Under the pieces are notes generated by a model, which was given only the letters and a program-made list of their open reading frames with translations, was not told where the DNA came from and searched no databases. A program made the translations under genes and the position numbers. 64,000 nt of DNA from Actinomycetospora succinea (GTDB lineage: Bacteria > Actinomycetota > Actinomycetes > Mycobacteriales > Pseudonocardiaceae), in assembly GCF_004363095.1 (NCBI RefSeq), contig NZ_SNYO01000001.1:310001-374000 (forward strand), in the 5' to 3' direction. Positions 28,708 through 36,363 of the stretch are shown one piece after another (the stretch's first letter is position 1; the number at the start of each line of letters is the position of its first letter).

Positions 28708-29220
28708 CTACGAGCCGGGCACGGGGACGGGCCGGAGGTGGTCGAAGATCAGGCTGGTGACGGTGCCCGCCACGTCGCGGTGGGCGTTGAGCCGGGCGAC
28801 GAGGTCGCGCAGCGCGCCGGTGCCCGCCGTCGCCACGTGCAGCAGGTAGTCGTCCTCGCCGGCGACGAAGTACACGTCGCGGACCTCCGGCAGGCGCCGC
28901 ACCAGCCCCGTGAACTCGCCGAGCCGGTCGCGCGCGTCGCTCTGCAGCCGCACCGAGATCATCGCCTGCAGGGGCAGCCCGACCGCCGCGGGATCGACGT
29001 CGGCGTGGTACCCGCGGATGACCCCGCGCTCGCGCAGCGACCGCACGCGCGCGAGGCACGTCGACGGGGCGACGCCGACGGCCTCGGCGAGCGCGGCGTT
29101 GGTGATGCGGGCGTCGGCGACGAGGTGGGCCAGCAGGGCGCGGTCGACCTCGTCGAGCGCCCGCACATCGTTCGGCGACAGAACCGCCGGACGCGGCACG
29201 TCGTCCGATCCTTCACGCAC
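28708..29220 (-). CDS. Lrp/AsnC family regulator of alanine dehydrogenase (AldR-like)
   Basis: A 170-residue protein with an N-terminal HTH (LDEVDRALLAHLVADARITNAALAEAVGVAPSTCLARVRSLRERGVIRGYHADVD) and a C-terminal RAM effector domain (VRDVYFVAGEDDYLLHVAT). It is divergent from alanine dehydrogenase at 29314, the arrangement known for AldR/ald in mycobacteria, where the regulator responds to amino acids such as alanine. A candidate site lies between them at 29230-29247. Confidence 0.87.
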   Translation of the reverse strand: MREGSDDVPRPAVLSPNDVRALDEVDRALLAHLVADARITNAALAEAVGVAPSTCLARVRSLRERGVIRGYHADVDPAAVGLPLQAMISVRLQSDARDRLGEFTGLVRRLPEVRDVYFVAGEDDYLLHVATAGTGALRDLVARLNAHRDVAGTVTSLIFDHLRPVPVPGS

Positions 29221-29229
29221 AACGCGAAT

Positions 29230-29247
29230 CTACAGAATCATCTGCAG
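29230..29247. promoter_or_regulatory. candidate Lrp/AldR binding site
   Basis: CTACAGAATCATCTGCAG is an imperfect palindrome (6 of 7 arm positions, spacer ATCA) in the AT-richer intergenic region between the Lrp-type gene and ald. It is the only obvious dyad there. Confidence 0.45.
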
Positions 29248-29313
29248 CGATGTACCAATCATGGCGCAGGAACTTCACGCTGGAGGGGAGACGCCGACGG
29301 ACGGAGATGGACG

Positions 29314-30411
29314 ATGAAGGTCGCGGTGCCCGCCGAGGTCAAGGACAACGAGTTCCGGGTGGCCCTGACGCCCGGCGGCGTGCGCGAGCTCGTCGCCCAC
29401 GGCCACGACGTGACCGTCGAGCAGGGCGCGGGCCTGGGCTCCGCGTTCGGCGACGACGAGTACAAGGAGGCCGGCGCCCGCATCCTCGCCGACGCCGACG
29501 CCGTGTGGGGCGACGCCGACATGGTCGTCAAGGTCAAGGAGCCGGTCGCCTCGGAGTACCACCGCCTCCGGGAGGACCTGACGCTCTTCACCTACCTCCA
29601 CCTCGCCGCCTCCCGCGCGTGCACCGAGGCCCTCCTCGACGCCGGCACCACGGCGATCGCCTACGAGACCGTCACCCGGAACGGCGCGCTGCCCCTGCTC
29701 GCCCCGATGAGCGAGGTCGCGGGCCGCCTCGCCCCGCAGGTCGGCGCGTACCACCTCATGCGCTCGAACGCCGGCCGCGGCCTGCTGCTCGGCGGCGTCC
29801 CCGGTGCGCCCGCGGGCCACGTCGTCGTCATCGGCGGCGGCGTCTCCGGCGCGAGCGCGGTCCAGATGGCGGTCGGCATGCACGCCCGCGTCACCGTGCT
29901 GGACACCAACCTCGACACGTTGCGCGCCCTCGACGCCCGCTACGCCGGCCGCGTGCAGACGATGTACTCGAGCGTCGACAACCTCGAGCGCGCCGTGCTC
30001 GACGCCGACCTCGTCGTCGGCGCCGTCCTCATGCCGGGTGCCAAGGCCCCGACGCTGGTGCCCGACGCCCTCGTCGCCCGCATGAAGCCGGGCGCCGTGC
30101 TCGTCGACATCGCCATCGACCAGGGCGGCTGCTTCGCGTCCTCGCACCCGACGACGCACTCCGACCCGACGTTCCCGGTCCACGACACGCTCTTCTACTG
30201 CGTGGCGAACATGCCCGGCGCGGTGCCGAACACCTCCACCCACGCGCTGACCCACGCGACGCTGCCGTTCACGCTCGCGCTCGCCGACCGCGGCTGGCGC
30301 GACGCCGTGGCCGCCGACGCCGGGCTCGCCGATGGTCTCGCGACCCACGCGGGCGCGCTCTACAGCGCCGCCGTCGGCGAGGCGCACGGCCTCCCCGTCA
30401 GCGCTCTCTAG
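29314..30411 (+). CDS. ald: alanine dehydrogenase
   Basis: A 365-residue NAD-dependent enzyme close to the family length of about 370. It has MKVAVPAEVKDNEFRVALTP, the substrate-binding MVVKVKEP, the catalytic His in FTYLHLAA, NAD Rossmann motif VVVIGGGVSGASAV, and DIAIDQGGCFASSHPTTHSDPTF. It interconverts L-alanine with pyruvate and ammonia. GGAGATGG lies just before the ATG. The stop codon shares CTAG with the stop of the convergent small gene at 30408, so the gene ends overlap with no terminator between. Confidence 0.95.
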   Translation: MKVAVPAEVKDNEFRVALTPGGVRELVAHGHDVTVEQGAGLGSAFGDDEYKEAGARILADADAVWGDADMVVKVKEPVASEYHRLREDLTLFTYLHLAASRACTEALLDAGTTAIAYETVTRNGALPLLAPMSEVAGRLAPQVGAYHLMRSNAGRGLLLGGVPGAPAGHVVVIGGGVSGASAVQMAVGMHARVTVLDTNLDTLRALDARYAGRVQTMYSSVDNLERAVLDADLVVGAVLMPGAKAPTLVPDALVARMKPGAVLVDIAIDQGGCFASSHPTTHSDPTFPVHDTLFYCVANMPGAVPNTSTHALTHATLPFTLALADRGWRDAVAADAGLADGLATHAGALYSAAVGEAHGLPVSAL

Positions 30412-30650
30412 CCCGCCTCGCGCCGCGCGTAGGACACCGCGGCCATCGAGGCCCGGGCCGACGCGAGCACCGAGGCCCAGTCCGCGTCCCCCGCGCCCGC
30501 GCGCATTGCCAGCAGCGCGCGGGCGCAGAGCGCCGCCTCGTGCGCGGCCCACAGCAGCGGGTCGCGGTCGGACGGCGGTGCCGCGAGGTGCTCGACCACC
30601 GCGGCGAGGTGGCCGTCGACGTCGTCGAGACCGGTGGCGGGTGCGCTCAC
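30408..30650 (-). CDS. 80-residue helical protein, last gene of carbamoyltransferase/ACP operon
   Basis: A small protein predicted as helical (DVDGHLAAVVEHLAAPP, LLWAAHEAALCARALLAMRAG, WASVLASARASMAAVSYARRE). It starts with GTG overlapping the carrier-protein stop by 4 bp, which ties it to the operon. I do not recognise a family. Size and place suggest an accessory protein that binds the carrier protein or another enzyme of the pathway. Its stop overlaps that of ald on the other strand. Confidence 0.65.
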   Translation of the reverse strand: MSAPATGLDDVDGHLAAVVEHLAAPPSDRDPLLWAAHEAALCARALLAMRAGAGDADWASVLASARASMAAVSYARREAG

Positions 30651-30904
30651 GCGGTGACCCCGACCTCGGTGAGGAACGCGGCCATCGCGTCGATGCTGCG
30701 GAAGCGGTCGATGTCGAAGTCGTCGAGCGGCAGCTGGCACCCGAAGGTGTCCTCCAGGCCGACGATCAGCGTCACCAGGGCGAGCGAGTCGAGCAGGCCC
30801 TCGGCGACCAGGTCGGTGTCGGCGCTGGGCACCTCGACCCCGAGCCGGTCGCGGACCAGGTCGGTCAGCCGCTCGGTCAGGGGCCCGGTGGTGGCGTCGG
30901 GCAT
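30647..30904 (-). CDS. acyl/peptidyl carrier protein
   Basis: An 85-residue carrier protein with the phosphopantetheine attachment Ser in GLLDSLALVTL, preceded by the usual helix 1 (LTERLTDLVRDRLGVE) and followed by FRSIDAMAAFL. It has no catalytic domain of its own. It begins 2 bp after the adenylation enzyme stop, so the pair probably forms an aminoacyl- or acyl-S-carrier, comparable with DltA/DltC or free-standing NRPS loading. A phosphopantetheinyl transferase must come from elsewhere in the genome. Confidence 0.9.
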   Translation of the reverse strand: MPDATTGPLTERLTDLVRDRLGVEVPSADTDLVAEGLLDSLALVTLIVGLEDTFGCQLPLDDFDIDRFRSIDAMAAFLTEVGVTA

Positions 30905-30906
30905 GC

Positions 30907-32477
<1,571 letters not shown>

Positions 32478-32481
<4 letters not shown>

Positions 32482-33494
32482 GCCCCCACCGCCGCGCCGG
32501 CCCGGGCGAACACCTCGCCGGCGTGGCCGAGGTCCTCGGCCGCGGGCGGGATGTCCAGCACGAACACGTCGGTCCCGCGCTCGACGTAGCGGGCGACCTC
32601 GGCCGCGACCCGGTCGTGCGAGCCGACCAGGTAGGGGCAGAACGACTGGTAGTTCTCGAACGGGCCGAGCCAGTACGGGTCCGGTTCGGCGTCGAGCTCG
32701 GCCGGCGGCGTCGGCGCCTTCGCGGCGGCGGCGAGCTGGTGGTGCCAGTGCGAGTCGGAGACCCGCATCGCCATCGCGTGGGCGACCTGGCCCGCGCGGT
32801 CGGCCGGGAAGCGCTCGTGGGCCACGCGCCACGCCTCGTCGGCGTCGTCGCGGGCGATGATCCCCATCCGCACCCCGCCGCCGGTGGGGGCGTCGGTGTC
32901 GGTGCCCGCCCCGAGCGGCTCGGGGTAGCGGATCGGCGTCGCCCCGATCTCCTCGGCCGCCGCGCGGCCGGCGGGGGAGGAGCCGGAGATCAGGACCTCG
33001 GGCATGAGCTCGGTCGGCAGGGGCGGGGCGAGGCGCAGGTTCTCCACCTGGTGCCAGCGCCCGTCGCGGGTGACGGTCTCGCCGCGCAGCAGGGCGGTGA
33101 GGATCTGGGTGTACTCGACGGTGCGCGCGTAGCGGTCGTCGTGCTCGGTGCGGTCGCCCAGCGCGACGAGGTCGTTCTTGAAGCCCCCGGCGAGCATGTT
33201 GAGGTGCACGGAGCGCCCGTGCAGGTACGCGAGCGAGGAGACCATCGACGCCGCGGTGTACGGGTGCATGTACACCGGCTGCACGGCCACCAGCGGGGCG
33301 AGGCGCGTCGTCGCGGCGATCGCCGTCTGCGACACGAGCCACGGGTCGGCGATGCCGTTGTCGGTGTAGACGAGCATCCCGGCGCAGCCGGCCTCCTCGC
33401 TCCAGCGCGCCGTCGCGGCGACCGCGTCGAGGTAGTCGGCGGCCGCCACGTCCTTGGACTGCGGGCAGGTCGAGTAGACCGTCAGACCGGTCAT
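32478..33494 (-). CDS. LLM class flavin-dependent monooxygenase
   Basis: A 338-residue luciferase-like monooxygenase of SsuD type: LTVYSTCPQSKDVAAADYLDAVAATARWSEEAGCAGMLVYTDNG, then SVHLNMLAGGFKND and HDDRYARTVEYTQIL, with PEVLISGSSPAGRAAAEEIG as the FMN-phosphate region. Such enzymes use reduced FMN from a separate reductase and O2. Within this operon it probably hydroxylates or cleaves a carrier-bound or free intermediate. Coupled by ATGA overlaps to both neighbours. Confidence 0.87.
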
Positions 33495-34600
33495 CCGGGC
33501 ACCCCCTGGGGCCAGAGCACGTGGTGGCCCATCCACCACTCGCCGTCGAGTCGGGTGAGGAGCGTGTCGTCGGCGTCGAGGGCCGCGAGCACGCCGGGGT
33601 CCTGCGAGTCGACGAGCGCCCAAGCGGCCGGGCGCACGAGGCAGCGCCGTTCCCGGACGGCCTCGGCGAGCGAGGGCTCGAGCCGCCCGGACACGGCGGC
33701 CGCGCCGCGGGCGTCGGCGTCGGCGACGAGGTGGTCGAGCACGGGGCCCGGGTCGGGCGTGGTGCTCGCCAGCTGCTGGACCTGCACGATCCCGCCCTCG
33801 GGGGCGAACGCGACGTACCAGCCGACCACCTTGCCCCCGCGCCGGCGCACGAGCGTGCGGACGACCTCGCCGCGCACCGGCGCCACCGTGTCGAGCTCGG
33901 TGAACAGGGCGGTGAGGTAGCGCGCGTCGTAGTCCGGGTGCAGGCGCCAGTGCCGCGGGGCCTCGGCCATCTGCTCGACCAGGGCCTCGACGGTCAGCGG
34001 CTCCCCGATGAGCTCCGGGTCGGGCGCCGGCGCGGGCCGCGCGCCGATCCGCGGGACCCGGCGCACGAGCGCGTCGACGCCGCCCCCGGCCGTGCGCAGC
34101 GGGCCCGGGATCGCCCGGCCGCGGTTGCCGAGGTACGTGGCGACGGTCGACGTCGGGCGCAGCACGCGGTACCACGCGAACGACGGCGCCGTGCGCACGC
34201 GACCGCGCAGCTGGCGCCACATCCGCCGCATGAGGTCGGTGGCGCCGTCGGTGATCGTCAGGTCCTGCGGGCCGCGCAGGTAGGCCCGCGTGAGCAGGGC
34301 GCCGATCCCCGGGGTCGACGGGTCCGCCACGAGGTGCCCCGAGCAGGCGACCCGCAGCGCCCGCCCGTCGAGGCGCAGCCGGCGCGGGTAGGAGCCCAGG
34401 AAGCCGACGACCGTGCCGTCGGACCCCTCGGCGACCAGCGGCGGGATCTCCGGATCCGCCCAGACGGCGTCCAGCGTCGTCCGGGCCAGGTAGCCGGCCA
34501 GGGGCGCCGGCGGTGTGTCCCCGCCGGAGCGGGCGAGGCGCTCGTAGAGCGCGGCGACGGCGGGCAGGTCCTCCCGCAGCAGGGGGCGGATTCCGGTCAT
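33491..34600 (-). CDS. GNAT-like acyltransferase (two-domain)
   Basis: A 369-residue protein. The N-terminal part (TGIRPLLREDLPAVAALYERLAR, VVGFLGSYPRRLRLDGRALRVACSGHLVADP) looks like a GNAT fold; the C-terminal half (WRLHPDYDARYLTALFTELD, VVRTLVRRRGGKVVGWYVAFAP) has a second GNAT-like pattern. The consensus acetyl-CoA loop is weak, so the acyl donor could be the carrier protein rather than CoA. It overlaps the carbamoyltransferase stop by ATGA and is clearly in the same operon. Role inferred: acyl or aminoacyl transfer in product assembly. Confidence 0.72.
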   Translation of the reverse strand: MTGIRPLLREDLPAVAALYERLARSGGDTPPAPLAGYLARTTLDAVWADPEIPPLVAEGSDGTVVGFLGSYPRRLRLDGRALRVACSGHLVADPSTPGIGALLTRAYLRGPQDLTITDGATDLMRRMWRQLRGRVRTAPSFAWYRVLRPTSTVATYLGNRGRAIPGPLRTAGGGVDALVRRVPRIGARPAPAPDPELIGEPLTVEALVEQMAEAPRHWRLHPDYDARYLTALFTELDTVAPVRGEVVRTLVRRRGGKVVGWYVAFAPEGGIVQVQQLASTTPDPGPVLDHLVADADARGAAAVSGRLEPSLAEAVRERRCLVRPAAWALVDSQDPGVLAALDADDTLLTRLDGEWWMGHHVLWPQGVPG

Positions 34601-36363
34601 GCGTCCTTCGTCGTCGCCCGGGGCTCCACGACGTACCCCTCGATGTAGAGGCGGTCGAGAGCGATCCCGGCGAACGTGTCGAGCGCCGTGCCCGGCGCCA
34701 TGATCAGTGGCTGGCCCTTGACGTTGAACGACGTGTTGACCACGACGCCCGAGCCCGTGCGTGCCTTGACCTCGCGCAGCAGGCGGGCGAAGCCGGGGGC
34801 GAGGTCGTCGCGCACCGTCTGGATGCGCGCGGAGTCGTCGGCGTGGACGATCCCGTCGACCACGGCGCGGGCCTCGGGGCGGACCTGCGCGGTGCACAGC
34901 ATGTACCGGTCGGGCTCGAATCCGCGTGTGACGAACAGCCGGTCGACGTCCTCGTCCAGCACGGCGGGCGCGAACGGCCGGAACGCCTCGCGGAACTTCA
35001 CCGCGCCGTTGATCCGCTCCTTGATCCGGTCGCCGTCGGGGCGGGCCAGGATCGAGCGGTGCCCCAGGGCGCGCGGCCCGAACTCCATGCGCCCGGAGAA
35101 CCAGGCGACGATCCGGTCGGCGGCGATGTCCTCGGCGGCGCGGGCGTAGTACTCGTCGGTCTCGCCGAGCCAGGTCCACGTCAGCTCGGGGCGCGCCTCG
35201 AGGGCCTCGCGCACGTCGTCCGGGGTGTAGGACGGGCCGAGGTACGGGTCGAACGGCCCGGTGACGGGCGCGAGCCCGCCGCCCTCGGTGCGCGCCACGT
35301 GCCACGCGGCGCCCGGCGCGGTGCCGTCGTCGCCGGAGGCCGGCTGGACGAACATCGCGTCGACGCCGGGCAGGTCGGCGATCGACTGGTTGGCCTTGCA
35401 GTTGAGGAACGTGCCGCCCGCCAGCGCGAGGTGGCGCTCGCCGGTGCGCTCCAGCCAGTGGCCGACGAGCTCGACGAGCACGGTGGTCAGGCGCTCCTGC
35501 AGCGCGGCGGCGAAGTCCGCCTCGTCGCGGTGGATGTCGCCGTCGGGGGTCTGCGGGGTGAACGCCGCCTCGGCGAGGAAGGCGCGGGCGTGCGGGTAGC
35601 CCGCGGCGGGCTCGGTGAGGCTGCCCGCGGGCCAGTCGACGACCACGGTGCCGCGCTCGAGGTCGGCGCGGGCGAGCTTCTCGAACACCGGCCGGAACCG
35701 CTCGGGGTCGCCGTAGGGCGCGAGGCCCATGACCTTGTACTCGTCGTTGTTGAACTGGAACCCGAGGAACCGGGTCGCGATCGAGTACAGGATGCCGAGC
35801 GACGCGGCGATGGGGACGGTGTGCAGCAGCTCGAGCTCGTCACCCTCGGCGCGGAAGATCGAGAGCGACTCCGCCTCGCCCATGCCGTCGCTGACGACGA
35901 CGAGCGCGCGGTCGAACCCGCTCGGGGCGAGCGCGGACTCGGCGTGCGCGACGTGGTGGCGCACCGGGCGGAAGCGTTCGGTGACCCGCGACCAGCCGAG
36001 CTCGGTGAGCCCGTCGGTGACGGTGGTGCTCGCGTAGACCTCGTCGAACGGGGCGCCCGCGATCTGGAAGGCGCGGCGGTGGCGCTCGTAGTCGAAGCCG
36101 TGGGCGATGAGGTCGACGTCGTCGGGCGTGACCCCGGCGTCGGCCAGGCAGGACGCGATGGCCTGCACCGGCAGCGACCCGGTGCCCTTCTCGCCGGTGA
36201 ACCTCTCCTCCGAGGCGGCCGCGACGAGGCGGCCGTCGACGATCAGGGCGGCCGCGCTGTCGAGGCCCTGACAGATGCGCTCGTCGAGCGGTGCGATGTC
36301 GGGGTTCGTGGCTCGCAGGTGCTCCTGCGAGTGCGGCAGACCGGACAGGCCGAGAACGATCAC
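34597..36363 (-). CDS. NodU/TobZ-type carbamoyltransferase
   Basis: A 588-residue carbamoyltransferase. The N-terminal Kae1-like ASKHA domain has MIVLGLSG, DSAAALIVDGRLVAAASEERFTGEKG, the metal-binding RHHVAHAESA and VVVSDGMGE. The C-terminal domain has EFGPRALGHRSILARP, KFREAFRPFAPAVL and VVNTSFNVKGQPL. These enzymes make carbamoyl-AMP from carbamoyl phosphate and ATP and transfer the carbamoyl group, usually to a hydroxyl of a natural product. It is the first gene of the six-gene operon; the GTG at 36363 has AGAGGAG 5 bp upstream. Confidence 0.93.
   Translation of the reverse strand: MIVLGLSGLPHSQEHLRATNPDIAPLDERICQGLDSAAALIVDGRLVAAASEERFTGEKGTGSLPVQAIASCLADAGVTPDDVDLIAHGFDYERHRRAFQIAGAPFDEVYASTTVTDGLTELGWSRVTERFRPVRHHVAHAESALAPSGFDRALVVVSDGMGEAESLSIFRAEGDELELLHTVPIAASLGILYSIATRFLGFQFNNDEYKVMGLAPYGDPERFRPVFEKLARADLERGTVVVDWPAGSLTEPAAGYPHARAFLAEAAFTPQTPDGDIHRDEADFAAALQERLTTVLVELVGHWLERTGERHLALAGGTFLNCKANQSIADLPGVDAMFVQPASGDDGTAPGAAWHVARTEGGGLAPVTGPFDPYLGPSYTPDDVREALEARPELTWTWLGETDEYYARAAEDIAADRIVAWFSGRMEFGPRALGHRSILARPDGDRIKERINGAVKFREAFRPFAPAVLDEDVDRLFVTRGFEPDRYMLCTAQVRPEARAVVDGIVHADDSARIQTVRDDLAPGFARLLREVKARTGSGVVVNTSFNVKGQPLIMAPGTALDTFAGIALDRLYIEGYVVEPRATTKDA

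Follow-up and report, generated by a model that had tools for sequence, protein, structure and literature searches.

We examined a compact operon of Actinomycetospora succinea (assembly GCF_004363095.1, 6.47 Mb) that lies in a 64,000-nucleotide stretch of contig NZ_SNYO01000001.1 (positions 310,001 to 374,000), referred to here as the window. Gene calls on the window place six minus-strand genes at 30408-36363, and their coordinates bear out the layout and junctions reported in a first-pass annotation of this DNA: in gene order ATGA, ATGA, ATGA, a 2-bp gap (TGA-GC-ATG) and GTGA. The genes, with the short names used below, are as follows.

36363-34597, minus strand: CT, a NodU/TobZ-type carbamoyltransferase of 588 amino acids (aa) with a GTG start
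34600-33491, minus strand: GN, a predicted tandem-GNAT N-acyltransferase of 369 aa, proposed as the transfer or off-loading enzyme
33494-32478, minus strand: LLM, a luciferase-like flavin monooxygenase of 338 aa, remote from SsuD (PF00296)
32481-30907, minus strand: A, a stand-alone amino-acid adenylation enzyme of 524 aa (TIGR01733)
30904-30647, minus strand: ACP, a stand-alone acyl or peptidyl carrier protein (ACP/PCP) of 85 aa (Ser of GLLDSLALV)
30650-30408, minus strand: a small protein of 80 aa with a GTG start, fold unassigned and no family match

The identities that the annotation had given to CT, LLM, the A-domain, the carrier and the GNAT-like protein hold, with Pfam matches in the operon to Carbam_trans_N/C, Bac_luciferase, AMP-binding (N and C; PF00501/PF13193) and PP-binding. 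CT carries PF02543 (Carbam_trans_N; 133.3 bits, cut-off 24) and PF16861 (Carbam_trans_C; 199.3 bits, cut-off 27) and stays below the NodU equivalog cut-off (140.7 vs 1000 bits). Its nearest solved structures, with PDB matches to 3.5e-91, are 9s2t (decarbamoylnovobiocin carbamoyltransferase), 7xb6, GdmN and TobZ, and it keeps the conserved HHxxH stretch of the metal site (window RHHVAHAES, aligned with PHHLAHAMS in 9s2t and PHHRAHLAC in 7xb6). The oxygenase matches PF00296 (Bac_luciferase) with 102.9 bits against a cut-off of 27.9 and aligns with SsuD (1m41) at E 1.9e-23, falling below the SsuD equivalog TIGR03565 (108.5/518.2 bits). A scores 392 bits with TIGR01733 (cut-off 317.4), and ACP matches PF00550 at 2.5e-12. 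Neither of them reaches the DltA or DltC equivalog cut-off (TIGR01734, 304.1/559.85 bits; TIGR01688, 28.4/52.35 bits), and Pfam finds no MBOAT (DltB) or LPLAT (AlmG) transferase among the six genes; judged by the DltA score and the type of transferase, the operon is a member of neither the Dlt nor the Alm systems. A Pfam search of the six proteins also agreed with the annotation in finding no condensation domain of the non-ribosomal peptide synthetase (NRPS) type, no thioesterase and no transporter.

GN itself matches no Pfam or NCBIfam family. Among its homologues, one (locus L141) passes the GNAT family PF00583 at 25.7 bits, the cut-off being 20.7, and another (L102) narrowly fails at 19.8. 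The predicted fold of GN comprises two GNAT lobes that span its full length, as in a tandem-GNAT N-acyltransferase of the NMT/Eis kind. NMT and Eis acylate amines of peptides and aminoglycosides.

Comparison of the window with an A. chibensis locus (L022) shows that the five genes common to both are under purifying selection, with dN/dS of 0.036/0.37 for LLM, 0.098/0.38 for CT, 0.137/0.50 for GN, 0.083/0.34 for A and 0.109/0.33 for ACP. The 80-aa protein has no Pfam or NCBIfam match, and among the loci compared its gene is confined to the window, L023 and L024. With a dN/dS of 0.121/0.60 (about 0.2) between the window and L023, it is under constraint in the three known carriers and so has the look of a genuine gene.

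We then compared gene order among relatives of CT. Among the best 80 of 152 such relatives, CT-LLM-A-ACP occur in this order at all ten Actinomycetospora loci (10/10), with GN between CT and LLM at two of them and the small gene at two others. The core is conserved, but the exact six-gene order is not general. Genes were called for 14 of these relatives, with poor calls for L043 and L045 and no genes called in L047, and no locus beyond L047 showed more than two kinds of match. An 85-aa protein beside the CT of a Xenorhabdus locus (L037), which we had first taken for a carrier protein, has no Pfam match and was not counted. The locus set and the genome set overlap partly in strains (L024 and L181 are identical, as are L042 and L183). 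Across the 18 genomes of the genus, LLM is present in 16 and CT in 12, in the following arrangements.

CT-GN-LLM: three genomes (G000, the window's own; G135; G189)
GN-LLM-A-ACP without CT: four genomes (G166, G178, G200, G235)
CT-LLM with GN on another contig: two genomes (G219, G243)
GN, a glycosyltransferase (GT), CT and LLM, contiguous by coordinates: six genomes (G042, G075, G098, G118, G151, G227)
Fragmented assembly: one genome (G258)

GN-LLM-A-ACP is a conserved cassette, and because four genomes keep it without CT, carbamoylation looks optional. One genome with the linked GN also carries a second GN-like gene, 34% identical and interrupted by stops (L104:8241-8789, G118:C27).

GN (E<=1e-10) and a close LLM (E<=5.6e-130; next match 2.2e-94) occur in the identical 17 of 297 genomes of the family, in searches that, like the formyltransferase search below, scored 6 or 7 candidates per genome. 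The informative cases are two double absences and two retentions across split contigs: G210 and G250 (83% complete) lack GN and LLM alike, and G219 and G243 keep both with GN on a separate contig. In a tree of 36 LLM rows (the window and 35 places from 34 loci, with 34 distinct rows in all), a subset of all LLM matches that drew a long-branch warning, 23/23 cassette rows fall on one side of a branch with support 93/93. Beyond the family, GN was found in 2/397 genomes of the order (E<=1e-10), both of this genus, and LLM in only the window's own among 394 genomes of the class (E<=1e-40); we read these counts as rarity, although only about 5 candidates per genome were scored. Core conservation, co-inheritance and purifying selection together support the joint pathway that the annotation had claimed.

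The cassette is also present in a second genus (g5), where 4/62 genomes have LLM, at five loci that join LLM-A-ACP-GN with a formyltransferase (FMT) and hold no CT in the cassette. FMT occurs in the same 4/62 genomes as LLM and lies directly inside the cassette at 5/5 of these loci. A cassette-type FMT (E<=1e-45) was found in 10/297 family genomes, all within the 17 carriers of GN and LLM. All LLM carriers checked (20/20; 16 from Actinomycetospora and 4 from g5) have CT or FMT. We dropped the idea that the two enzymes are strict alternatives, since five genomes, the window's among them, carry both. The FMT of the window genome (G000:C10:188769-189671; L184/L185) is 47% identical to the cassette FMT of one g5 genome (G288), and eight other genomes of the genus have relatives of it; its neighbours, judged by eye from gene calls, are not recognisable as cassette genes. 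G250 has an FMT fragment and no LLM match. FMT is closest to sugar and tRNA formyltransferases (ArnA, Fmt), and TobZ-type enzymes carbamoylate sugars. At the g5 locus in G710, two LLM copies lie about 5 kb apart on opposite strands, only one of them adjoining the A-domain (L175:8937-15805).

Read at the expected specificity positions, the A pocket is D L F F L C L I A K. An alignment of 12 rows drawn from the two genera shows no variation in the pocket stretches or in the DSL of ACP. A wider pocket table has 29 rows besides the window; in it L173 is unreadable and L102 lacks the last position. From this pocket we guess at a small amino acid as substrate, with glycine favoured and alanine or serine possible; the guess of glycine follows from a pocket that seems smaller than that of DltA (D L M T L C T V A K), and the argument stays weak. 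A further argument for glycine, from gramicidin synthase LgrA as top PDB match (9e-144), was dropped when the match turned out to be the sum of two A-domains of 234-246 bits each. A stand-alone A that is 35% identical and stands beside a related LLM in G142 has nearly the same pocket, DLFFLCLISK. The surrounding cluster (L139:4148-15636) includes two LLM-like genes, the second recognised by eye, and genes like those of hydroxyphenylglycine synthesis (HPPD/glyoxalase-type by Pfam, others by eye).

What the cassette might act on is suggested by where it lies in relatives. Three of the five g5 loci (G288, G710 and G705 contig 86) sit in polysaccharide gene clusters. The G288 cassette is flanked by a PF02397 sugar transferase and a GT, and its locus also holds a 4,6-dehydratase (PF02719), a DegT aminotransferase, a UDP-sugar dehydrogenase, rml-type genes, a Wzy_C protein and a weak, below cut-off match to Polysacc_synt (flippase-type). 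Two PF02397 proteins, a DegT aminotransferase and a nucleotidyltransferase surround the G710 cassette, and the G705 contig 86 locus has a Wzz protein and a GT. Within Actinomycetospora, six genomes carry a GT between GN and CT (a fused GT2-GT4 of 656 aa in A. chiangmaiensis), and the detached GN of G243 neighbours four GTs, an NAD-dependent epimerase, a polysaccharide deacetylase and Wzy_C, a setting that, by gene calls, resembles that of the detached GN in G219.

We suggest, as an evenly balanced judgement, that the operon is a carrier-protein line resembling Dlt and Alm, in which a small amino acid is loaded, oxidised and capped before it is used to N-acylate the amine of a glycan. The stand-alone A would activate the amino acid and charge the stand-alone ACP, LLM would oxidise the bound amino acid at the alpha carbon or nitrogen, and CT (carbamoyl) and/or FMT (formyl) would cap it. 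GN would finally transfer the finished group from ACP to an amine, likeliest a 4-amino sugar of a surface polysaccharide or exopolysaccharide. What the analysis shows directly is gene content, conservation, co-occurrence, the polysaccharide setting of relatives and GN's predicted fold; the best-supported steps of the route are loading and transfer. From sequence we infer that an amino acid is loaded, oxidised and carbamoylated, as the annotation had proposed, and likewise the substrate, the order of steps, the LLM reaction and the acceptor in the window genome. The annotation had also offered the GNAT-like protein as the release enzyme; that role fits its predicted tandem-GNAT N-acyltransferase fold, with the charged ACP as putative donor, but the likely acceptor is a glycan amine.

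The nearest systems in working principle are AlmEFG (glycine, Vibrio lipid A) and DltABCD (D-alanine, teichoic acids), in which an adenylating enzyme and a carrier protein work with an acyltransferase to a surface glycan (PMC3783018). The window operon likewise pairs a stand-alone adenylating enzyme with a stand-alone carrier protein, whereas it has a tandem GNAT in place of MBOAT/LPLAT and adds the LLM oxygenase and a carbamoyl- or formyltransferase. That paper uses the names AlmE and AlmF the other way round from their usual sense. In the anthrose and viosamine pathways, 4-amino-4,6-dideoxy sugars are N-acylated from acyl-ACP, and the proposed reaction would similarly put an acyl group onto the amine of a dehydratase/DegT-derived amino sugar; it would differ in that the group is an A-domain-loaded amino acid, oxidised and capped. 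CT has both Pfam domains of TobZ, GdmN and NovN, but its partners are an A-domain, ACP and LLM. For oxidation, the myxothiazol line offers a precedent for oxygenating carrier-bound glycine, in that a monooxygenase domain hydroxylates glycine (PMC9396620). In both cases the presumed substrate of the oxygenase is an amino acid bound to a carrier, whereas the window LLM is a separate protein of an SsuD-like branch in an operon without condensation domain or thioesterase. The myxothiazol domain is presumably of the LLM type. We found no published match to the gene set, the enzymes or the genus in the full-text literature, with most subscription papers and MIBiG outside reach; the annotation, too, could not match the gene set to a described pathway.

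Several observations weigh against glycan decoration. No glycan genes lie beside the window operon, and a search of the window genome for the GT linked in other species gave nothing at E<=1e-20. Two g5 loci (G693 and G705 contig 63) show no polysaccharide genes within the ~20 kb examined by eye in gene calls. The A-domain frame is interrupted at both G705 loci (contigs 63, 86), of which the one on contig 86 counts among the polysaccharide-cluster cases; the contig 86 locus additionally has a broken LLM and a short GN, and the two loci may be decayed or poorly assembled. Because 16 of the 17 co-occurrence genomes belong to one genus, those counts are not independent. In all nine Actinomycetospora genomes with FMT, it lies on another contig than LLM, and the finding that within the genus only LLM carriers have it is not significant (9/9 among 16/18; about 0.24, by hand). 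Alternatively, the donor for GN could be acetyl-CoA, or its acceptor the amino acid itself. A-domains, often of NRPS type, are neighbours at four (L043, L044, L046 and L047) of the 16 CT loci from other genera (L031-L041, L043-L047) and at 10 of the 13 non-cassette LLM places, in what look like metabolite clusters.

Much of this would suit a free metabolite, the small product that the annotation had inferred: the ACP-bound amino acid would be oxidised and carbamoylated and leave as a diffusible compound, with GN N-acylating or releasing it. The window operon and two g5 loci without glycan neighbours, the A-domains near CT, a CT locus (L041) that includes a carrier protein as well as a phosphopantetheinyl transferase (PPTase), and the LLM relatives in NRPS-type clusters all point that way. 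We nevertheless consider this explanation rather unlikely, and a free small molecule is probably not what the pathway ends in, because cassette genes recur in polysaccharide loci of two genera (three of five g5 loci; GN among polysaccharide genes in two genomes) and a GT stands between GN and CT in six; nor do the six operon genes provide a thioesterase, condensation domain or transporter. It is less probable still that the operon combines two functions, with A, ACP and LLM making a separate product and GN, FMT and CT modifying sugars by N-acetylation, N-formylation and O-carbamoylation. The kinship of FMT with ArnA and Fmt, the sugar carbamoylation by TobZ-type enzymes, and the independent relocation of GN and loss of CT are in keeping with such a division, but GN and LLM share the same 17/297 genomes, those with GN on a separate contig included, and FMT lies directly in the cassette at 5/5 g5 loci, including the two without sugar genes nearby. 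We think it very unlikely that the same route serves a glycolipid, protein or cell wall in place of a polysaccharide sugar: GN does resemble NMT and Eis, yet relatives lie in a polysaccharide context with DegT (G288, G710) and 4,6-dehydratase (G288) genes of the kind that make amino sugars. Decoration of a glycan, about an even call, is the likeliest function, over a free metabolite.

If glycan decoration is correct, the carrier-protein aminoacylation of surface glycans seen in Dlt and Alm would extend to actinobacterial polysaccharides, with on-carrier oxidation and capping taken over from the assembly of natural products. LLM oxygenases of a clade that adjoins A-domains would gain a testable role; the model would also tie a tandem GNAT to acyl-carrier chemistry, and make LLM-A-ACP-GN marker genes for polysaccharides bearing unusual substituents. 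A more specific version, which we regard as a speculation with slim chances, is that a tiny amino acid such as glycine is N- or alpha-hydroxylated by LLM, capped with formyl or carbamoyl, and placed on an amino sugar by the myristoyltransferase-like GNAT, as a hadacidin-like N-hydroxy-N-formylglycyl or a ureidoglycolate-like group. Hydroxamate- or urea-type groups of this sort, possibly metal-binding, on an actinobacterial sugar coat would be a new class of glycan decoration.

Contig 11 of the window genome carries five PF02397 sugar transferases together with three DegT-like genes, and a sixth PF02397 protein is encoded on contig 4. None is linked to the operon, and we set these candidates for an acceptor locus aside.

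On its 5' side the operon is flanked by a divergent gene for an ABC_ATPase (PF09818) protein, and on its 3' side by a convergent alanine dehydrogenase gene with an Lrp/AsnC-type regulator past it. According to gene calls, the regulator and alanine dehydrogenase genes (window 28708-30411) are mutually divergent and occupy the same place in L024, not in L022. A pattern search gave neither a sigma-70-like promoter nor a terminator, a negative of little weight at such G+C.

Some relatives of CT and LLM have neighbours of other kinds. A Streptomyces hygroscopicus locus (L041:5107-9752) groups a CT, 64% identical, with the carrier protein and PPTase mentioned above and has no LLM match in the stretch examined. 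In Photorhabdus bodei (L031:8001-14077), a 55%-identical carbamoyltransferase gene stands just upstream of luxC, luxD-type and luciferase-type genes. Four of the seven plasmid matches to LLM were looked at, and clusters in Tritonibacter, Rhizobium and Gemmobacter (L169, L170 and L171) combine a related LLM with stand-alone AMP-binding proteins and a PPTase, together with a PCP and a P450 (L169, L170), a tryptophan halogenase (L171) and an acyl-CoA dehydrogenase (L169, L171).

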